Source: an uncultured Pseudodesulfovibrio sp. (lineage in GTDB: Bacteria > Desulfobacterota > Desulfovibrionia > Desulfovibrionales > Desulfovibrionaceae). From it: a stretch of DNA of 64,000 nucleotides. Of the stretch, positions 1,117-18,192 are shown in pieces; the stretch's first letter is position 1, and every line of letters starts with the position of its first letter. The position numbers and the translations under genes were made by a program. The stretch is from NCBI RefSeq assembly GCF_963677845.1, contig NZ_OY782498.1:72001-136000 (forward strand), given 5' to 3'. The notes below the pieces were generated by a model. It did not search any database. It saw only the letters and a program-made list of their open reading frames with translations, and was not told the origin of the DNA.

Positions 1117-1575
1117 TCAGTATGTTATTGCGTCCCATTTCGATATGAGCTGATCCGCCAATTCACTCAATTCATGTGTTTTTCCATTATACGATAAATG
1201 GTATTCAGGTTCCGAGTTTAACGTTATTTCATTTAAGGCTGCGCCATTTAGTAAAGAGCTTTTGGTACTGGGGATCGCGTTTTTGTCTATTTGCTGTAGT
1301 TTAGGGTCGCGAAGCTTTAAATGTTTATTCTTGTTACAAACAAACTGCATTATAATATAGAGATTGCCGAAATGAGTTCGGATTTTATTCTTTGTCCATT
1401 TTTTATGAATCCGTTTTCTTCTGTTCGTGCGAGGGCCTTTGATCAGGTAGTCTTCAATGTGATATATAGTCACGAATAAGTTGAAAATATTGTCTGGGGT
1501 TGGGGCGTTGCGATAAACAACTAAATCCCTCTTTGCCTTTGCGAGCATCTCGCTTGCGCAATTAATCCCGAACAT
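1117..1575 (-). CDS. Hypothetical protein, 152 aa (putative transposon cargo)
   Basis: The ATG at 1575 follows a GGAGATCG Shine-Dalgarno stretch. The protein is basic and Asn/Lys-rich, with a cluster of Arg/Lys at residues 50-65 (RTNRRKRIHKK), and has no signal peptide or membrane segment. I recognise no domain. It lies between the TniB-TniQ fusion gene (about 160 bp upstream) and the truncated gene at 1-992 (about 125 bp downstream), all on the minus strand. Base composition is AT-rich compared with the metabolic genes to the right. It is probably cargo of the Tn7-like element; the function is unknown. Confidence 0.6.
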   Translation of the reverse strand: MFGINCASEMLAKAKRDLVVYRNAPTPDNIFNLFVTIYHIEDYLIKGPRTNRRKRIHKKWTKNKIRTHFGNLYIIMQFVCNKNKHLKLRDPKLQQIDKNAIPSTKSSLLNGAALNEITLNSEPEYHLSYNGKTHELSELADQLISKWDAITY

Positions 1576-1736
1576 TTTTCGATCTCCTTGCTTTCTGATA
1601 GCTCAAACTGCCTTCATCGCTCTCAGCGCATGTTTGTCACGCACTGCCGTATATATACAAAATCTTGATCACACTCAAACAGTCTGTTTATAAATGGCAG
1701 CAAATATGTGAAGTGTGGGCCATCTGGTTGCATCAC

Positions 1737-3680
1737 TTAGTGGTGCTTTTCAAAGTGACGCTTTTTGATGTCCCGTAGCTTGTTGTATTGACGGTTCATT
1801 TTTTGTGTGAATACTCGATACCAGTTAGGCGGATTTGGAAAGTCCCTTACTAGTGAAGCATATCTCACAGCACCTTCTTTCCACGCGTCCGTAATGCGCA
1901 TCTTTGGACTTAACATTATCCAGAGTGCGAGGTGGATGATGTGATGACGTGTGGAAATGCCTCTCCAAGAAAAAGGCGTTCTTTTGTGCGGAATCATAAA
2001 AGCAGGCATTTCGAGTTTGGAGCATATATACTCTCTTAGTTTGCCCTTGTTTTTTTTTGATAGCAAAATCCAGCATAGATGATGAAGGACTAAGAAGAAC
2101 GGCAAGTCATGGTTGCAAGCGGTGCTGGCATTAATGGAGTGTAAGAGTCCTTTGTGCTTGTTGGTCAGTTCGGCTCGATCCCCCTCAAGCCTTTGCGGCT
2201 TTGCAGAACGCAAGTCGGCCCCGCAATTGTAGCACATAGTTATAGAGGCGGCTTGGTCGATATCAACACCGCAGTCTCTTCTATGAAAGGCTATCCGAGC
2301 TCCGCATATTGAGCATGCGTCGAGCATTTTTACCATATGAATAGGGCAAAAGGTGTAAAACGCTAGCCTCCATTGTCTTCGATAGTAAGGCTGTTTCCCC
2401 TCAGATAGGCATCGTGGGCAGAACTGTGTTCCGCTTGTTGGGATTCTAGAACCAGGAATTTTTGTAGGCAGTATCCATTGTGTCCTCGTTCCTCTTTGGG
2501 CGGCGGGGAAGATGACTCCTGAGTATTCGGCAAGGGTCGTTTTTTGACCTATATGGAGTGGTGCCCCCGTTGCATCACAGAGCGCTTTAAGGAACCATTC
2601 GCCCCCTTCAACGTCTAGAACCCAATACCATGGAGGTTTTTGCGCTCCAAGGCGCATGAATGCTAGCGTGTGTTGCTTGACGAGATTTGCTTCAGCTACG
2701 CGTGAAAACCATGAAGCAAGCGATTCATTCCATAGCGGCTTGGGGTGTGCCGGCAGCAGTTTTCCTGAGAGCATACTTACCCTCCGTGTTCTGGCCAGTA
2801 TCTCCTGTCTTGGGGGGGCACACCAATTGAGTGAGTTTAATATGTCGGTGTCGATTTTCTCATGCCCCTGCTTCACAGCTGCCGTAGCAGCGTTTGTCAG
2901 AAGTCTGGATATTTCACCTATGTACCCATCGCTCATGCTAAGAATCTGTTTGGCGAGAGGGCCTTTGTGAAGGTCGGAGGCGTTCTTAAGCGGAAACATG
3001 CGTTCAAATGTGATCAGCAGGCGGCGGTATGTTTCACCGTCTTTCCACCTAGGAAGCGGTGCAGGCTCAAAGCGATTTGCTAACTGGTCGTCTGTCTGAA
3101 TTGCACGAAACGCTTCTTTGGTGCCGACGCCGATAATCGGAATTTGAAGTTCATTGCCGATGTATTTGATGACATTAAGAAAAGCCCTTTGTTTATTAAG
3201 GTTTCCTGCTAGAATTTGATGGATTTCATCAATGACGAGCATGCGCAAACCAACATATTTAAGCAGCTTGATTGCTTGGGCGCTTTTCTTCCCGACCCTG
3301 TCTGATGGTCTGAATGGCGCAAATAGCTTTTCAAGAATCGTATTGTAAAAGCGTCCTTCATCCGGAACCGGTGGTGCTTGGATGTAAAGGACTGGAACAA
3401 TAGCGGCTTCGCCGTCAGGATTGTCGTTGGGAGGATGTCTTTTGCAAAACCTCTGGACCAACATCGTCTTTCCGTTGTTGGTGTCTCCCACAATAAGCAG
3501 ATTAGGCATCCTGTGAGACTTGGGGTAAGTGAGTAAGTCTTCTAGTTTTGCCAACGTCTTTTCAGCCTGAGGATAGCCAATCCATCGGGAGGATCTGATT
3601 TTGACGATTCGTTCGTCGTCAGAAAGAGCTAGGTGCTTAATGGCCAGTTCGTTGAGATGTGGATGTTGAGGAGTCATCAT
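1737..3680 (-). CDS. TniB/TnsC-type AAA+ ATPase fused to TniQ (transposition regulator and target selector)
   Basis: One uninterrupted frame of 647 aa holds two proteins that are normally separate. Residues 1-300 are a TniB/TnsC AAA+ ATPase with Walker A GDTNNGKT at 65-72 and Walker B LVIDEIH around D151-E152. Residues 303-647 are TniQ: a start-like MLSGKLLPAHPKPLWNESLA segment followed by zinc-binding pairs CPRC, CPIH, CSIC and CYNC. In Tn7/Tn5053-type elements the ATPase links the target selector (TniQ/TnsD) to the transposase, so the fusion would tether both. It overlaps the end of tnsB (ATGATGA), implying coupled translation; the second ATG, at 3677, has the better spacing from GGAGGAG. 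An internal Shine-Dalgarno and ATG sit at the junction. Confidence 0.88.
   Translation of the reverse strand: MMTPQHPHLNELAIKHLALSDDERIVKIRSSRWIGYPQAEKTLAKLEDLLTYPKSHRMPNLLIVGDTNNGKTMLVQRFCKRHPPNDNPDGEAAIVPVLYIQAPPVPDEGRFYNTILEKLFAPFRPSDRVGKKSAQAIKLLKYVGLRMLVIDEIHQILAGNLNKQRAFLNVIKYIGNELQIPIIGVGTKEAFRAIQTDDQLANRFEPAPLPRWKDGETYRRLLITFERMFPLKNASDLHKGPLAKQILSMSDGYIGEISRLLTNAATAAVKQGHEKIDTDILNSLNWCAPPRQEILARTRRVSMLSGKLLPAHPKPLWNESLASWFSRVAEANLVKQHTLAFMRLGAQKPPWYWVLDVEGGEWFLKALCDATGAPLHIGQKTTLAEYSGVIFPAAQRGTRTQWILPTKIPGSRIPTSGTQFCPRCLSEGKQPYYRRQWRLAFYTFCPIHMVKMLDACSICGARIAFHRRDCGVDIDQAASITMCYNCGADLRSAKPQRLEGDRAELTNKHKGLLHSINASTACNHDLPFFLVLHHLCWILLSKKNKGKLREYICSKLEMPAFMIPHKRTPFSWRGISTRHHIIHLALWIMLSPKMRITDAWKEGAVRYASLVRDFPNPPNWYRVFTQKMNRQYNKLRDIKKRHFEKHH
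2772..2786 (-). promoter_or_regulatory. Internal ribosome-binding site and ATG at the TniB/TniQ junction
   Basis: On the minus strand, CGGAGG (2781-2786) is followed by six bases and an in-frame ATG (2772-2774, codon 303 of the fusion). The ATG lies exactly where a free-standing TniQ would begin, ten residues before its conserved N-terminal PxPLWNES-like motif. This suggests that a separate TniQ of about 345 aa could be translated from inside the fusion gene. That is inference from spacing and position; a chance occurrence or a relic of a recent gene fusion is possible. Confidence 0.5.
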
Positions 3681-5539
3681 AGCTCCTCCATCACATCAAA
3701 GGGCTGCAAGTCGTCCAAGTCATCAAGTTCGCGTGGAACAGGTTCAGCTTGGGGGCTCAACAATTTTTTCTCAGTTGCCCCAATGCCCATTTGTCTGCGT
3801 TTATTTGCTCTTCTTGTCGCGGTGGTATTCTTTTTTGCTGTCTCTACAACCTCCCGCATGTGCGTGTAGGCTTCAAAAATTAAATCTTCATTAATAGAAG
3901 TTTTTCCGGCTTCTAGAAGTCTACGTTTGGCTTCACGCATTTCCCATACGCTTATTGGAGGATGAGAAGTATCCCTGTAGGGGATTGGGAAGTATGTATC
4001 GAGCTCCGGGTCGAAAAACCAAATTGTACTAATGTCGCGAGGATCACGGCGGAAAACAAATTTTCGTTTGAGTTTGGGATTTTCTGTGCCAGGTGCATCA
4101 ACCCATCTTCGTAGAGCATCTGCCCAATAATGGATTTTATCAATCAGGATGCCATAGGTTTGAACCGACCTTTCAACGAAAGGCATGAAATCAAGTCGAA
4201 GCCGCTCTTCGTCCAACGTCATAGCCGGTAGCCCCGAGCCTGGTTTAGTGTCGGTTCCCAAGATGCCTTCACGATATTTGTCGATAGGGGCCATTGTTAT
4301 ACCTGAATGAAGACGATGGTGGTATGCTTGCACGACGAGGGTGGCAAACCATTTCTCAAATTCTGATAGTGATAATGCCGCCTGGTCTTCGGACTTGTAG
4401 CGGCCCCGTTCCTGTACGTTGGAAAATGTTGTGCCAGGCAACGCTTTGATTTCATCAGCAAAAGTTCCAAGTAGCCTTTCTACGTGTCCTCCAAATTCTG
4501 GGCGAGCCACCGGACGCCATTCAATGTGTATCCCATACTGGTCGCAGGCCTTTTGCAGCATTGTCCCGCGGAATTCTTTCGCATTGTCAACGTGAATCGT
4601 TGTGGGAAGCCCATAGCATGGCCATTCCCCGTCTATCTCGTGCTTGGTGAGCCAGTTGTCTTTCGGAAGTATTGCGTGAGCTAAGCACAGGCCGGTAGAA
4701 AGGGCGCTGGGAGGGTCAAAGGATATATGATAGCCGACAACCATCCTACTGAATACGTCAACAGCCAGCGTTATCAATGGCCTGCCGATAGGCATGCGGT
4801 AGATGTCATCAACCAGGATGATGTCCATCGGAGTGTGGTCGATTTGAACAACTTGCAAGGGGAGGTCTGCCCCAGGAAACTCTCCCTTGGTTGGCTCGTA
4901 TTTGTCCTTGGCGGCTTTGTAGCCATGCCTTTTTGTTGTTTTTAGGTAGCCGGGGATGGCATTCAATCGATTTCTAACTGTGTTGGGGTGAGGAGGCTTG
5001 AGATTCGCTTTGCGGCACCTGCGCTCCACTTCTCGGCATACTTTAATAGGAGCCTTTTTTTGCTTGGTTAAGTATTCCGTCTCGATGACCTCTCGGATAA
5101 TTTTTTCAACTTCATCGGAAAGTTTCTTGGTCCCCTTGTCTACTCTCCGTCCAGGAACAAGCGAGGTCATTAATCTTGAATCCTCATAGCGTCTCATCCA
5201 CTTGTAGAGTGTGTTGACATGCACGCCGACCTCATCAGCTCGGGTGGCAACCTGTTTTCTGGTTCTGCCAGGCAGAAAGAGGAGTGGCTTGATATTTTCG
5301 TATCGTTCTTTGGCAATTTGCCACTTTTCTTCTGACACTCCCTCGATGCAAGGGGAGTCTACTGGCTGATTTGGAAGAGGTTTAATCTGAGATAGCTTAA
5401 ACATACTCACTTGGCCTGTTTCATAATCGCTGATTGTGAATGTGTTTAAGTCAACGATTTCGATAATGGTCCCACGGTGGCCATCGGCTATTACCATCTC
5501 GCCCTGAGAGAATGAATATGTGGCTGGATAACTGTTCAT
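3677..5539 (-). CDS. tnsB: TnsB/TniA-type DDE transposase
   Basis: This is the Mu/Tn7-type integrase that cuts 3' ends and joins strands during transposition. The RNase H-fold triad is visible: D234 in QIDHTP, D318 in IHVDNAKEF, and E354 in GGHVERLLG (35 residues after the second Asp). Helix-turn-helix-type DNA-binding segments precede it (TRKQVATRADEVGVHVNTLY), and a Mu-type beta-barrel and basic tail follow. I chose the ATG at 5539 (620 aa) because it overlaps the tnsA stop as ATGA; the frame is open further upstream to an ATG at 5650, which would overlap tnsA by 115 bp. Second gene of the tnsA-tnsB-tniB/Q operon. Confidence 0.93.
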   Translation of the reverse strand: MNSYPATYSFSQGEMVIADGHRGTIIEIVDLNTFTISDYETGQVSMFKLSQIKPLPNQPVDSPCIEGVSEEKWQIAKERYENIKPLLFLPGRTRKQVATRADEVGVHVNTLYKWMRRYEDSRLMTSLVPGRRVDKGTKKLSDEVEKIIREVIETEYLTKQKKAPIKVCREVERRCRKANLKPPHPNTVRNRLNAIPGYLKTTKRHGYKAAKDKYEPTKGEFPGADLPLQVVQIDHTPMDIILVDDIYRMPIGRPLITLAVDVFSRMVVGYHISFDPPSALSTGLCLAHAILPKDNWLTKHEIDGEWPCYGLPTTIHVDNAKEFRGTMLQKACDQYGIHIEWRPVARPEFGGHVERLLGTFADEIKALPGTTFSNVQERGRYKSEDQAALSLSEFEKWFATLVVQAYHHRLHSGITMAPIDKYREGILGTDTKPGSGLPAMTLDEERLRLDFMPFVERSVQTYGILIDKIHYWADALRRWVDAPGTENPKLKRKFVFRRDPRDISTIWFFDPELDTYFPIPYRDTSHPPISVWEMREAKRRLLEAGKTSINEDLIFEAYTHMREVVETAKKNTTATRRANKRRQMGIGATEKKLLSPQAEPVPRELDDLDDLQPFDVMEEL

Positions 5540-6237
5540 GGCAAATACCAGATCGGGGTTTTCATGGTTATCGGTTCGGAGAAATTGCAGCCGACTTGAA
5601 AGGTGCCAACCAGGTACCATAGCGTCGGCAGCAGCTTTGCTTGATTCCATTCGTCTTTAAAAATGTACTCCACCAACTTTCGCGGAGTGGTTTTGCCAAG
5701 CTCATGGAGTTTTGTGTCCAGCAGCTCCATTAGAGCCTCTGGGCCCGGTCCTTGGCGTGTGAACGGCAGTAGGAAACGGGCTGTATCCAAGAGGGGCGTT
5801 CTGATTTCAATTTCGGAAGCAATTTTAAAACGCCATCCCTGAGTCTTAGCGAATGACAGGGCCTTTTTGAATTTGGGTTTTAGGTCGTCCCAGGCCTTTG
5901 CCATGTCGCTTCGATATTTGACCTCAAAAAGTGTTGGAATGCGCTTTGACTTTTGGGTGTAGTGAACAAGTACGTCAGGAGTGTAACGACGGCTCTTGCC
6001 CTGCGGATCAGTCCACTCGATTGTGACTGGCTGGACCTCGAAAGACTCAACTTCAGGTGAGAATTCAATGAGCGTCAAAAAATCTCTTTCAAGGGTTGAT
6101 TCAAATGCGGCAACATCTGTCGATTTTCTATGCGCAGCAATTCCGGTCACATTGCGATAATTTTTAGGAATTCTTCTAGCTGACATATTAAACCAGTAGC
6201 GATTAGCGTTGTGAGTTTTGTTTGTACTATACCCCAT
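5536..6237 (-). CDS. tnsA: TnsA-type endonuclease (transposon 5'-strand cleavage)
   Basis: The 233-aa protein has the PD-(D/E)xK nuclease signature of TnsA: E46/E50 in FESTLERDF, D88 in RRYTPDVL, and E105-V-K107 in LFEVKYR. TnsA cleaves the 5' strands so that, together with TnsB, transposition is cut-and-paste rather than cointegrate-forming. The C-terminal 100 residues correspond to the TnsA C-terminal domain that contacts TnsC. It is the first gene of the operon and is translationally coupled to tnsB by an ATGA overlap. tnsA normally lies next to the right end of a Tn7-like element, so that end should lie just beyond 6240. Confidence 0.93.
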   Translation of the reverse strand: MGYSTNKTHNANRYWFNMSARRIPKNYRNVTGIAAHRKSTDVAAFESTLERDFLTLIEFSPEVESFEVQPVTIEWTDPQGKSRRYTPDVLVHYTQKSKRIPTLFEVKYRSDMAKAWDDLKPKFKKALSFAKTQGWRFKIASEIEIRTPLLDTARFLLPFTRQGPGPEALMELLDTKLHELGKTTPRKLVEYIFKDEWNQAKLLPTLWYLVGTFQVGCNFSEPITMKTPIWYLP

Positions 6238-6329
6238 GACACCTCCTAGTAGTCAATAGTGTTGTGGAAAAAACCGAAAATGGATGGGGCTGGTAGCGAT
6301 GAGCGATGGAATTCACAAGAGAAATGAAT

Positions 6330-13033: not shown

Positions 13034-14947
13034 ATGGCAAAACCATATAAGACAACGTTGCCCCGACTGCTGTGCAAACAGGCCGAGGAACGCGGCGAAA
13101 AGACAGCCCTGCGAGAAAAGGAGTGGGGTGTCTGGCAGGCCGTGTCCTGGCAGGAAAACCTCAAAGTAACGGCGGAGTTCGCGTGTGGCCTCGAACATTT
13201 CGGGCTGGGCAAGGGCGACATTGTTATTCTCATCGGCGACAATCGCCCGGAATGGATCTGGGCAGAGCTTGCCATTCAGGGGCTGGGCGGTATCGCGCTC
13301 GGTCTGTATCAGGACTCCCCCGCAGAAGAAATCGAATACATTTTCGCACTGGCTGAGTGCAAACTGGTGGTGGCCGAGGATCAGGAGCAGGTCGACAAGA
13401 TGCTCTCGTTTCGCGAAAATCTGCCCAACCTCAAGCATATTATTTACCACGAGCCAAAAGGCCTCAAAGCCTATGAGGCGGACGTGGACGGACTGTTGGA
13501 TTTCAAGGCTGTCCGTCGTCTGGGCCGTGAAGGCTGCAAGGACGCCGTGGCTCGCTATAGAGAGATGGTCAGCGCGGTCAAACCGGATGATCCGGCATTG
13601 ATCGCCACAACGTCCGGCACCACTGGTCGTCCCAAACTGGCGGTGCTTTCACACGCCAACCTGCTGTCCATGGCGCATAATCTGGGCAAGTATGACCCCA
13701 AGAGTGCAACCGACGAGTTTGTGTCCTTTCTGCCTCTGGCGTGGATGGGCGAGCAGATGATGGCTGTGGCCTCGGCCCTGCTGTTCGGTTTTTGCGTCAA
13801 TTTCCCGGAGAACCCGGACACAGCATCCAATGATTCCCGCGAGATCGGGCCGCATTTTATCTTTTCCCCGCCGCGTGTGTACGAATCCATCGCTGCCAAA
13901 GTGCAGGGCGACATTATGGAGACCACGAAGTTCAAGCGGTTCCTTTACAATCTGTTTTTGCCCATCGGGTATGAGTATGTGGATACCGTGTTTGCCGGAA
14001 AGACTCCGTCTGCCTGGTTGAAGCTGAAGTATTTCGTTGCTGATCAAGGGTTGTTTCGCGCCTTACGTGATCGCCTCGGTTTCAGCCGTATGCGTTCGGC
14101 TACAACAGGCGGGGCCGCTCTTGGCCCGGATATTTTTCGTTTCTTCCACGCGCTCGGTGTCAGGCTCAAACAGATTTATGGCCAGACCGAAATCGCGGGT
14201 ATTTCCTGCATCCACAAGGAAGGCGAAGTTGACTTCACCTCCGTGGGCGCACCCATCCCGGAAACAGAAGTGAAGATCACGGATGAGGGCGAGATCGTTT
14301 CCCGATCTCCAGCGGTTTTTCTTGGTTATTACAAGAACGAGGAAGCCACTCGTGAGACCGTCAACGAAGATGGCTGGTTGCTTTCGGGGGATGCCGGATA
14401 CTTTGACGACAACGGACGTCTGGTGGTCATCGATCGTTTGAAGGATGTCATGCATCTCAATGACGGAACCCAGTTCTCGCCTCAGTTTTTGGAGAACAAA
14501 GTCAAGTTCTCTCCGTTTTTGCGAGAATCCGTTGTGTTGGGCGGCGGGCGTGACTATGTGGCCGCAATTTTGTGCATTGATATGGCTATCGTGGGTCATT
14601 GGGCTGAGACTCAGATGATCACGTATACCACGTATCAGGATTTGGCAGCCAAGGAAGAAGTCTACGCGCTCATTAAAGCAGAGATTGCGAAGACTAATGA
14701 TTCGCTCCCCGGAGAGACGCAGATCAAGCGTTTTTGTCTGCTCTACAAGGAACTGGACCCTGACGATGGTGAGTTGACCCGTACCCGCAAAGTGCGACGG
14801 TCGACTATCAACGAGCGGTATGGCGCGTTGATCGAGTCGCTCTATACCGATGCATGTGCAGTGAATCTGGAAACTGAAATTACGTATCAGGATGGCCGGG
14901 TGCGAGAGATGTGCGGCGATATCCGCATAGAAGACATGGAGGTGTAA
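13034..14947 (+). CDS. AMP-forming long-chain-type acyl-CoA synthetase
   Basis: 637 aa of the ANL superfamily. The phosphate loop TTSGTTGRPK, the YGQTE motif (IYGQTEIAGIS), the acid-binding GWLLSGDAGYFDD and the hinge region IDRLKDVMHLNDG are present. The enzyme activates a carboxylic acid to its CoA thioester through an acyl-adenylate. It closely follows livG and its stop is two bases before livH, so it is co-transcribed with the transporter. That arrangement suggests activation of the imported acid. The specific substrate cannot be read from the sequence. Confidence 0.88.
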   Translation: MAKPYKTTLPRLLCKQAEERGEKTALREKEWGVWQAVSWQENLKVTAEFACGLEHFGLGKGDIVILIGDNRPEWIWAELAIQGLGGIALGLYQDSPAEEIEYIFALAECKLVVAEDQEQVDKMLSFRENLPNLKHIIYHEPKGLKAYEADVDGLLDFKAVRRLGREGCKDAVARYREMVSAVKPDDPALIATTSGTTGRPKLAVLSHANLLSMAHNLGKYDPKSATDEFVSFLPLAWMGEQMMAVASALLFGFCVNFPENPDTASNDSREIGPHFIFSPPRVYESIAAKVQGDIMETTKFKRFLYNLFLPIGYEYVDTVFAGKTPSAWLKLKYFVADQGLFRALRDRLGFSRMRSATTGGAALGPDIFRFFHALGVRLKQIYGQTEIAGISCIHKEGEVDFTSVGAPIPETEVKITDEGEIVSRSPAVFLGYYKNEEATRETVNEDGWLLSGDAGYFDDNGRLVVIDRLKDVMHLNDGTQFSPQFLENKVKFSPFLRESVVLGGGRDYVAAILCIDMAIVGHWAETQMITYTTYQDLAAKEEVYALIKAEIAKTNDSLPGETQIKRFCLLYKELDPDDGELTRTRKVRRSTINERYGALIESLYTDACAVNLETEITYQDGRVREMCGDIRIEDMEV

Positions 14948-14948
14948 C

Positions 14949-15836
14949 ATGGAATATTATCTGCAACTCATCGTCAATGGACTGGTGGTCGGCGGCATCT
15001 ATTCCTTGGTCGCCCTGGGATTCGTCATTATATACAAGGCCACAAAGGTCGTGAACTTCGCACAGGGCGAGCTGGTCATGGTCGGGGCATACATGTGCTT
15101 CGCGTTGACCGTACAGTTTAACATCCCGTTTATCTGGGCATTCTTTATCACTCTGGGGTTTTCTGTTCTGCTCGGTCTTGCCATCGAACGCATGGTTCTA
15201 CGGCCACTCATTGGTGAGGAACATATCTCGGTAATCATGGTTACGGTGGGGATGAGTTCTGTGCTCAAATCGTTGGTGCAACTTTTTTGGGGCACCCAGA
15301 TTAAGGTGTATCCGCAGGTGTTGCCGAGTGAACCGATTGTGATCGCAGGTTTGCCCGTAGCCCCTGTCTATATCGCGGCCTTTGCGCTCTCTGCGGTCCT
15401 GTTCGCCATCTTCTCGGTCTTTTTTAAATATTCACGGACAGGGATTGCTATGCGTGCCACGGCCTTTGACCAACAGGCCGCGCAATCCATGGGGATAGGT
15501 ATCAAAAACATCTTTGCCATGAGTTGGTGCATCGCTTGTGTTGTTTCTTCTGTGGGCGGCGTGATCCTTGGCAATATCAACGGTATTAATTCCCACATTG
15601 GTCATCTTGGACTGAAAGTTTTCCCGGCGGTGATTCTCGGCGGGCTGGATTCCCTGCTCGGCGCGGCACTTGGCGGGTTGATTATCGGTGTGCTTGAAAA
15701 TGTGTGTGATGGGGCGGCGCGACAGTTGCTCGGTCTGGGTGGTTTCCGAGAGGTTGCGGCCTTCATTATTTTGGTCATTATCTTGATGATCAAGCCATAC
15801 GGTCTGTTCGGGACCAAAGAGATCGAGAGGGTTTAG
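14949..15836 (+). CDS. livH: Branched-chain amino acid-type ABC permease LivH
   Basis: 295 aa with about eight hydrophobic membrane segments and the LivH-type N-terminus (LVVGGIYSLVALGFVIIYKA, NFAQGELVM). The EAA-like segment ILGGLDSLLGAALGGLIIG lies near the C-terminus. The GGAGGTG of the preceding ligase end serves as its ribosome-binding site, indicating tight coupling. Confidence 0.93.
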   Translation: MEYYLQLIVNGLVVGGIYSLVALGFVIIYKATKVVNFAQGELVMVGAYMCFALTVQFNIPFIWAFFITLGFSVLLGLAIERMVLRPLIGEEHISVIMVTVGMSSVLKSLVQLFWGTQIKVYPQVLPSEPIVIAGLPVAPVYIAAFALSAVLFAIFSVFFKYSRTGIAMRATAFDQQAAQSMGIGIKNIFAMSWCIACVVSSVGGVILGNINGINSHIGHLGLKVFPAVILGGLDSLLGAALGGLIIGVLENVCDGAARQLLGLGGFREVAAFIILVIILMIKPYGLFGTKEIERV

Positions 15837-15838
15837 TC

Positions 15839-16885
15839 ATGCAAGGCAAATGCGGTCTCTTTTTCACCTCCTATCGCGGCGAAGCCCGGATTTTTCAATC
15901 CGGTTTCCAAAAACTCATGATCGGCCTGCTTGTTGCGGCCTTGTGTGTTGCCCCATTGGTACTCGACGTCTTTACGACATCCGTCATGAACTTGATTTTT
16001 ATCTCGGTTCTCGGCGCAGTGTCCCTCAATTTGTTGACCGGCGTATGTGGTCAGATTTCCCTCGGTCATGGTGCATTTATTGGTGTGGGTGCGTATGCAG
16101 CAGGGCAATGTTCCCTGCATGGTGTTCCATTCCCGCTGGCGATTCTGACCGGAGGTCTGATTACGGCCATGGTCGGTATGGTGTTTGGCGTTCCTTCGCT
16201 TAGGCTCAAGGGTATTTATCTCGCTATCGCAACGTTGGCGGCCCAGTTAGTGCTTGAATACGTGTTCCTGCATGGCGGGGCGTTGACCGGTGGGTCCAAC
16301 GGGTTGCTGCTCGACCCGCCGCAGATGTTTGGCTTCAGTTTTGATACTGAGGGACGGATGTACTATCTGCTCTTTGCTTTTGCCGCTGCCAGTCTGCTCA
16401 TGGTGTCAAATATCATGCGGTCCAAGTACGGACGGGCTTTCGTGTCCATCAGGGATTTCTATCTGTCGGCTGAAATCGTGGGAGTGAACTTGTTTTGGTA
16501 CAAGCTTATCGCATTCGGCGTCAGTTCGTTTTTAGCGGGTGTGGCCGGTGGCCTGTGGGGGCATTACACGGGATACATTTCTGCCGAGCAGTTCAATATA
16601 GGGCTGTCCATTTCCTACCTTGCCATGATCATTATCGGCGGATTGGGGTCGGTCATCGGTTCTGTGTTCGGTGCCATATTCATTGTACTGCTCCCGGAAG
16701 TCCTCAACATTCTTGCGAACGGCGTGGGGGCGTATTTCCCGGACATCGCCCAGCACATTGTGGCTCTGCGCGAAGGTGTGTTCGGATTGGTTCTTATTTT
16801 GTTCCTGATTTTTGAACCGGAAGGACTGGCAAATCGTTGGCGTTTGGCCAAGGCGTATTGGAAGTTGTATCCGTTTGCTCATTAG
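15839..16885 (+). CDS. livM: Branched-chain amino acid-type ABC permease LivM
   Basis: 348 aa, strongly hydrophobic, with family motifs LNLLTGVCGQISLGHGAFIG, RLKGIYLAIATL and the cytoplasmic-loop segment IIGGLGSVIGSVFGAIF. It follows livH after two bases. With LivH it forms the membrane channel of the importer. Confidence 0.93.
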   Translation: MQGKCGLFFTSYRGEARIFQSGFQKLMIGLLVAALCVAPLVLDVFTTSVMNLIFISVLGAVSLNLLTGVCGQISLGHGAFIGVGAYAAGQCSLHGVPFPLAILTGGLITAMVGMVFGVPSLRLKGIYLAIATLAAQLVLEYVFLHGGALTGGSNGLLLDPPQMFGFSFDTEGRMYYLLFAFAAASLLMVSNIMRSKYGRAFVSIRDFYLSAEIVGVNLFWYKLIAFGVSSFLAGVAGGLWGHYTGYISAEQFNIGLSISYLAMIIIGGLGSVIGSVFGAIFIVLLPEVLNILANGVGAYFPDIAQHIVALREGVFGLVLILFLIFEPEGLANRWRLAKAYWKLYPFAH

Positions 16886-16977
16886 GCATAATCCCGCAAA
16901 AGGCGGGTTAAAAATAGAAATGACGTCTCGTTCACAGTGGAGGGACGTGTCAACCTCAATCCCTTAGGAGAATGACT

Positions 16978-18192
16978 ATGAGGGTAGGTACAATCATAAC
17001 TGCGGTTTGCATCACGCTTTTGGCCGGGCTGATGCTGTTTGGCTGCGGAGGCGAAGACAAGAAATCGGCTGAAACTTCAACCAACGACGCTTCTCCCATC
17101 AAGGTGGGTGGCCTTATTGACATGTCTGGTCCCACATCGTCCGTGGGCGCTCCTTATGCAGAAGGAATCAAGGGTGGCGTTAAATACGTCAACGAGAACG
17201 GCGGCATTGATGGCCGTATGATTGAGCTGAACCTTCAGGACACTGCCTATAATGTTCAGCAGGGACTTTCTTTGTACAAGAAGATGGTCAACACCGACAA
17301 GGTTGTCTGTATCCAAGGGTATGGCTCAGCTGTGACCGAAGCTCTGATTCGTAATCTGGCCAAGGACAAGGTCCCTGATCTTTCCGCATCCTATTCCGCG
17401 CATCTGACCGATCCGAAAAAGGCACCTTACAACTTTTTCATAGCGGCGGATTATTCCACGCAGGCCCGTGCTGCCATCAAGTATTTCCATGAAAACTGGA
17501 AGGGCGAAGGCGCACCCAAGATTGCCTTTATCTATCCCGATCACCCTTATGGTTTGGCTCCTATTGCCGGTGCCAAGGCATACGCCGAAGAACTCGGTTA
17601 CGATGTCGTGGGCGAAGCCAATGTTTCGCTCAAGGCCATTGACGCTACCACCGAGTTGTTGCCCCTCAAGGATTTGGCTCCCGATTTTTGCTGGATAGGC
17701 GGAACAACGCCGTCCACATCGGTCATTCTCAAGTCTGCCAAGAATATCGGCATGAATACGACCTTCTTTACCAATATTTGGGGCTCTGATGAAAATCTGC
17801 CCAAATTGGCCGGAGAGGATGCCAACGGTGCATATTCCAATCAGGCCGCCGCAGTGTATGGGCAGGACGTTCCCGGCATGAAGGCTATTATGGAAATTAC
17901 CGACAACAAACCGCAGATGACACATTACATCCGTGGCTTTGTGTCCGTGTTGGTTATGGCCGAGGGCCTCAAACGTGCAAATGCCAATGGTCCGGTGACA
18001 GGTGAGTCTCTTAAAACGGCTCTTGAAACCCTTCGCGATTTTGATCCCATGGGGCTGGCTCCACTCATTTCCTACTTTCCGGATGATCACCGCCCGAATA
18101 TGGCCGTGTTCCTGTATGTCATCAAAGATGGCAAGTTGACTTTTGTAAAAGAGGAAATCCTGAACCGTCGAGCCGATTGGCTGGGACATTAA
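16978..18192 (+). CDS. livK: Periplasmic substrate-binding lipoprotein of the liv-type transporter
   Basis: 404 aa. The N-terminus has a hydrophobic stretch ending in the lipobox LMLFGC, so the protein is probably lipid-anchored. The rest is a type-I periplasmic binding fold (IKVGGLIDMSGPTSSVGAPY, GGIDGRMIELNLQD). I chose the second ATG (16978) because TAGGAG lies seven bases upstream. A small hairpin separates it from livM. It determines the substrate of the transporter; the ligand is not identifiable here. Confidence 0.9.
   Translation: MRVGTIITAVCITLLAGLMLFGCGGEDKKSAETSTNDASPIKVGGLIDMSGPTSSVGAPYAEGIKGGVKYVNENGGIDGRMIELNLQDTAYNVQQGLSLYKKMVNTDKVVCIQGYGSAVTEALIRNLAKDKVPDLSASYSAHLTDPKKAPYNFFIAADYSTQARAAIKYFHENWKGEGAPKIAFIYPDHPYGLAPIAGAKAYAEELGYDVVGEANVSLKAIDATTELLPLKDLAPDFCWIGGTTPSTSVILKSAKNIGMNTTFFTNIWGSDENLPKLAGEDANGAYSNQAAAVYGQDVPGMKAIMEITDNKPQMTHYIRGFVSVLVMAEGLKRANANGPVTGESLKTALETLRDFDPMGLAPLISYFPDDHRPNMAVFLYVIKDGKLTFVKEEILNRRADWLGH

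Follow-up and report, generated by a model that had tools for sequence, protein, structure and literature searches.

Gene content and ends of the element

The window, which is the whole stretch of 64,000 nucleotides that was analyzed from an uncultured Pseudodesulfovibrio sp., contains the right tip (window position 6317) of a Tn7-like element of 13,071 bp (13.07-kb; G000:C1:65247-78317, where G000 is the genome of the window). Three open frames on the minus strand hold its core genes. The gene nearest the tip, tnsA (5536..6237), encodes an endonuclease (Pfam Tn7_TnsA-like_N, PF08722, E 7.3e-19) and is followed by tnsB (3677..5650), a DDE transposase gene with matches to Pfam Mu-transpos_C and rve; PF09299 is above the cut-off (E 1.3e-10), and rve (E 1.6e-5, 25.5 bits) is below its cut-off of 32.6. 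The translation start of tnsB likely lies at 5539, overlapping the tnsA stop, and no SD was found for this putative start. We take the TnsB neighborhoods at 267, 352 and 387 to be those of the D/D/E motif. The third frame, a single open frame of 647 codons with an ATG start (1737-3680), consists of tnsC, for a TniB-type AAA+ ATPase, running into tniQ.

The tnsC part takes up 302 codons of this fused frame (2775..3680), with Pfam TniB covering residues 24-213 of the 647-aa translation (E 3.5e-78), and the remainder is a complete tniQ of 345 aa (1737..2774), with Pfam TniQ at residues 310-451 (E 1.5e-23, profile positions 1-141 of 142). A preliminary description of this DNA had reported one 647-codon frame joining a TniB/TnsC ATPase to a complete TniQ, and both Pfam matches bear this out; the Walker A motif that it had placed at residues 65-72 was recovered in the translation as G65-T72 (GDTNNGKT), as was D151-E152. 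Its four cysteine pairs in TniQ, by comparison, need amendment, as there are three CxxC pairs (421/424, 456/459 and 483/486) and the fourth is a CxxH (C445/H448); all eight zinc ligands are invariant in a 15-row TniQ alignment. Modeled on its own, TniQ reached a mean AF2 pLDDT of 84.2 and matched solved TniQ and TnsD chains in Foldseek, the best PDB match being the TniQ chain of the type I-B CAST 8fcu (E 9.9e-6, TM 0.43), so that the 345-aa protein is predicted to fold well alone.

The right terminal inverted repeat (6293..6317) has GAATTCACA at its tip and its partner arm lies outside the window (G000:C1:65247-65271); the element tips are thus TGTGAATTC/GAATTCACA, and the 25-nt arms are 76% complementary. 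The 5-bp target-site duplication AGAGA flanks both sides (6318..6322 and G000:C1:65242-65246). With TnsA, TnsB, TnsC and TniQ, and TGT...ACA ends bordered by a 5-bp duplication, the element carries the genes and ends of a Tn7-like transposon, although TnsC and TniQ are not two separate frames in this sequence.

The insertion point lies 18 bp past the lepB stop, and the element is present in one copy; a TniQ-family search of the same genome gave one match, which implies that there is no second copy. The ends of the element are bordered by the lepB stop and by a terminator-like hairpin recognized by eye. Another genome of the genus (G011) has, in the interval from lepB to the metallo-beta-lactamase-fold gene, a single frame of 150 codons or more; it is 341 codons long and looks unrelated. 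Across 68 loci, for most of which the flanks did not exceed 8 kb, no lepB match was detected, and lepB in combination with a Tn7-like attachment site was not found in the open-licence literature. The site is possibly a lepB-linked attachment site.

The junction between tnsC and tniQ

The minus strand at the junction reads ...TGTG CCCCCCC AAGACAGG..., the run of seven Cs lying at 2812..2818. Past this run the fused frame encodes PPRQEILARTRRVS, and the +1 frame encodes PQDRRYWPEHGG followed by a TAA stop (2777..2779) two bases before an ATG (2772..2774). This ATG is codon 303 of the fused frame and in frame with it, leaving 345 residues, and was correctly reported beforehand as having CGGAGG six bases upstream (GGAGG-N6-ATG, with GGAGG at 2781-2785). 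The preliminary description did not mention the seven-C run or the TAA of the +1 frame. Among the 392 in-frame ATGs beyond codon 60 of open frames of at least 250 codons within the window, the ATG at 2772-2774 is the only one with GGAGG 4-9 bases upstream; a looser SD rule (at least five bases matching the anti-SD at a spacing of 3-13) is passed by 20 of them, this ATG included.

The seven-C run is also where the frame departs from its family. The TnsC of the nearest relatives closes with P-S-(D/E/K/Q)-R-(K/R) before its stop codon, and their TniQ starts only a few bases away. When scored against a profile built from 16 distinct tails, which came from 19 of the 20 TnsC rows of at least 45% identity (L047, at 45.3% and without the motif, was excluded, and the profile did not draw on the 48 rows under 45%), the six-position tail of the fused frame, PPRQEI, scored -4.5 bits, a value equaled by 56% of random peptides, and the third frame scored -4.0 bits. 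The tail of the +1 frame, PQDRRY, scored 11.4 bits, which 0.08% of random peptides reach, and thereby lies within the range of the relatives' own tails when these were left out singly (7.6-19.2 bits). A comparison made without choosing tails gave the same direction: of the two peptides, the +1 version was the better fit in 18 of the 20 rows of at least 45% identity, with L047 opposite and L043 tied, and across all 68 rows it was better in 50, the fused peptide being better in 12, with six ties. As the family-type tail is absent from the fused frame and present in the +1 frame, the departure is best read as one base gained, on balance, at the C run or next to it. The C run itself is missing at the junction in 15 of the 16 displayed relatives, the one with seven Cs being L043.

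The spacing of the two genes is conserved. The tniQ start falls between -8 and +4 nt from the end of the tnsC stop codon in 13 of the 15 nearest relatives; in L043 the start is ambiguous (-14 or +4 nt), and L031 gave none by the rule used, the other 14 each giving one. The 2-nt distance between the +1-frame stop and the ATG in the window recurs in L033, L034 and L035 (67% TnsC identity), which also have an alternative tniQ start at -4. SD matches of at least four bases precede many tniQ starts and are missing at the likely start in L032, L038, L039 and L042, so the strong SD of the window is no family constant. The +1 frame thus supplies the family tail, the stop and the spacing of the relatives, and the ATG at 2772-2774, which aligns with the tniQ starts of the relatives, is very probably the ordinary tniQ start, to judge from these alignments. 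Its proposed role as a start for TniQ is therefore supported by homology, and its proposed character as a hidden internal start is not: the ATG is present in homologs and is internal in none of those seen.

That tniQ starts no more than 10 nt from the tnsC stop in those 13 of 15 relatives, a conserved arrangement, fits a translationally coupled gene pair, for which tnsC-tniQ is a candidate. In the parts of Antonov et al. 2013 (PMC3711429) that were used here, conserved closeness of stop and start is classed as translational coupling, and singleton frame transitions are classed as indel mutations or sequencing errors; both classes fit this junction.

Separate genes in related loci

Six exact query peptides were used to scan a species-level genome collection, where 87 stretches matched and 60 proved to be relatives; with nine further loci from plasmids and genomes of the same phylum, these make up 69 related loci, some of which are near-duplicates (e.g., L033 and L034), so that 69 is not the number of independent elements. 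A TniB-type frame was present in all 69, and a single open frame with both TnsC and TniQ domains in none. A separate tniQ frame lay just downstream of tnsC on the same strand in 40 of the loci, and no same-strand TniQ frame was found just downstream in the other 29. In five of the 40 pairs (L013, L015, L029, L030 and L031), tnsC and tniQ share a frame and are divided by a stop codon. A search of other genomes for the same fusion, which had been proposed as a check, hence returned it from none of the related loci, and among the sequences compared the fused state is confined to one element. The closest TnsC found was that of Aquitalea (L032), at 70% identity, with none closer among the relatives. 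As 60 of the loci came from a peptide-based, non-exhaustive search, genuine fusions in a small clade may have escaped sampling.

No match spanning both halves was found besides that in the window's own genome, among 3 of 60, 8 of 297 and 6 of 395 neighboring genomes with a match (the three sets overlap, and every count of matches includes the window's own genome); in the phylum genomes G209, G279, G293 and G629, and in the third match of G361, the frames were 481-565 aa long and matched part of TnsC only (E about 1e-5). Among plasmid records, 2156 matched the query and five covered at least 80% of it, and tnsC and tniQ were separate in the three examined (H1 and H2, both of at least 80% cover, and H11). 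A distant DNA search of plasmids with window positions 1600-6320 returned five records with cover of at most 10%. Four phage records matched in part, none covering 80% of the query. In viral contigs, the TniQ alignment gave two weak matches, neither locus having a TnsC match at E 0.01. Four viral stretches that matched a whole-protein pattern were also inspected, and none was a relative. Phrases for a TnsC-TniQ fusion were not found in the open-licence literature, which does not prove absence.

Origin of the fused frame

A frameshift confined to this one element is the most likely origin of the fusion. We consider it highly probable (about 0.86) that two frames of an ordinary, tightly packed operon (tnsA-tnsB-tnsC-tniQ) in a Tn7-like transposon are joined here by a net +1 base at the seven Cs: the fused state is a singleton with a homopolymer beside its join, and one extra base in that homopolymer accounts for it best. 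The additional base, near the 3' end of tnsC, would have removed the normal TnsC tail and stop, and the tnsC frame would then continue into tniQ. Free TniQ, 345 aa long, would still be started from the ATG at 2772-2774. Should the extra base be real, TnsC would be made mainly as the 647-aa read-through product, possibly with a little of normal length arising by +1 slippage at CCC-C, and the fusion would have no selected role. Against a frameshift stand a frame that stays open across the junction and a perfect 5-bp duplication, so that the fused state is not visibly decayed.

Within this frameshift explanation, the additional base may be a private mutation or a single homopolymer sequencing error. 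That the seventh C is an error of sequencing or assembly, the cell having a normal tnsC stop and a separate tniQ, is possible, at somewhat less than even odds: a homopolymer stands where the frame leaves the family, and the fused state is found once against 69 loci without it. Other runs of this length in the genome point the other way. When 20 G7/C7 runs outside the element were taken in listing order, seven (L103, L107, L108, L112, L114, L119 and L121) sat within open frames of more than 300 codons, and the remaining runs lay in shorter frames or in none; same-strand frames meet near the run in L116 and L122, and none of the 20 is a proven break. Of the three G7/C7 runs in the element, one falls within the TnsE-like frame of 597 codons. 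Not every such run is thus broken in the assembly, which argues mildly against its being generally error-prone.

The preliminary description had favored an evolved device, in which a 647-aa protein holds ATPase and target selector together, fixing their stoichiometry, and an internal start supplies extra TniQ. The open frame with both domains complete, the strong internal SD-ATG and the predicted ability of the TniQ part to fold on its own are compatible with such a device, yet the lack of a fusion in any of the 69 loci, the loss of the family TnsC tail and the seven-C run at the join count against it, and we regard it as highly improbable. The known architecture of related complexes is also unfavorable. 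In the portions of a PseCAST structure preprint that were used (PMC13228271), the N-terminal region of TniQ wedges between TnsC subunits on the N-terminal face of TnsC, and removal of seven N-terminal TniQ residues abolishes transposition, while the C-terminal face of TnsC serves the transposase in type V-K and I-B systems. By analogy, tying the N-end of TniQ to the C-end of TnsC would be awkward, with TniQ misplaced and its N-end hidden. Neither this geometry nor the 7:2:1 stoichiometry of TnsC, TnsD and DNA given in the title of the 8glw entry suits a one-to-one covalent pair.

A locus tuned by slippage, in which phase variation of the seven Cs or a +1 slip at CCC-C yields fused and free TnsC besides free TniQ, appears quite unlikely. 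Passages of PMC4519876 describe CCC-C as +1-slippery, with slippage in E. coli reaching 1% where the sequence is placed at the second codon, a +1 shift from the fused frame does give the family tail and stop, and poly-C/poly-G phase variation is reported for other genes in the part of PMC3711429 consulted. However, the tract is not conserved, as its single occurrence among the 16 displayed relatives (L043) is in a normal frame, and seven Cs are in our judgment short for phase variation; a conserved slippery sequence, as expected of programmed frameshifting, was accordingly not found among these relatives. We likewise think it very unlikely that the locus has three products, namely a fused TnsC-TniQ, a minority of normal TnsC (from +1 slippage or from a changed tract length in some cells) and a free TniQ, with slippage setting the ratio of ATPase to selector. 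In L043 (Holophaga), the seven Cs are at about the same place in tnsC, just before the stop (7894).

Comparison with known systems

The nearest Tn7-like TnsA-TnsB-TnsC-TniQ elements found were those of Aquitalea aquatica (L032), Methylobacter (L033-L035), Lysobacteraceae (L036) and Xanthomonas (L038, L040). They share gene order and strand with the element described here, at identities of 66-70% for TnsC, 54-61% for TnsA and 52-55% for TnsB, and their TniQ starts are similar (e.g., MLSGELWSAHP in L033), but their tnsC and tniQ are separate, touching genes and not one frame. A more distant comparison is offered by the tniB-tniQ pair of L015, which we take to be of the mercury-transposon type (Tn5053/Tn402). 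There too the two genes lie in one frame with only a stop codon between them; in contrast to the window, they encode two proteins, no TnsA was seen beside them, and TniB identity is 47%.

The Tn6022-like branch, as outlined in the sections of PMC10293859 used here, resembles our element in its separate TnsA and TnsB, its TnsC and TniQ and, probably, a distal TnsE-like gene remote from the core, and differs in its insertion in comM instead of after lepB. The two genes beyond tniQ showed no recombinase family match, so no TnsF was found beside tniQ, and the combination of TnsF and comM that marks the Tn6022 branch was not found. Natural TnsA-TnsB and TniQ-TnsF fusions exist, according to parts of PMC11406308 and PMC10293859, so that Tn7 core or targeting proteins are known to occur in covalently joined form; the same parts of these two papers contain no mention of a TnsC-TniQ fusion.

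If the fusion were a true one, it would be the first covalent link of an AAA+ hub to a target selector met in the literature and genome searches made here. The junction also carries a caution: tnsC and tniQ are so tightly packed that one indel or lost stop can produce a plausible fusion with a ready-made internal start. Since five of the 40 pairs already share a frame, a single such event suffices for an apparent fusion, and in those five loci (named above) a lost stop or stop read-through would yield one. A simple test for claims of this kind is to seek the family tail and stop in the neighboring frame.

The far end and cargo of the element

At the far end of the element, outside the window, a 594-aa gene (G000:C1:65404-67188; L016:9404-11188) is probably a divergent TnsE. 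In 11 of the 68 loci searched (L031, L032, L034-L036, L038-L042 and L081), a relative of it is encoded on the strand that faces the tns operon. The structural model has a pLDDT of 69.5, and its six best Foldseek PDB matches are all to the TnsE C-terminal domain, although weak (best E 0.035, probability 0.94); Pfam TnsE_C, at E 0.054, was below the cut-off on the relative in L036, and a sequence-profile search of solved structures did not find TnsE. The position is in keeping with the account in part of Faure et al. 2023 (PMC10293859), where Tn6022-like elements have such a remote TnsE close to their left end, at a distance from the core genes.

The cargo gene adjoining tniQ (1117..1575, minus strand) encodes 152 aa and has no family match. 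Further cargo outside the window includes a C5 DNA methyltransferase, an HSP90-type ATPase domain protein that matches MzaB weakly and a 706-aa protein whose NERD nuclease match is below the cut-off, and the cargo at L016:11829-14833 and 14872-16992 looks like a restriction or defense cassette. In the whole genome, overlapping G7 matches number 78 on the forward and 522 on the reverse strand, and one run of 17 bases occurs at 2091900-2091916.
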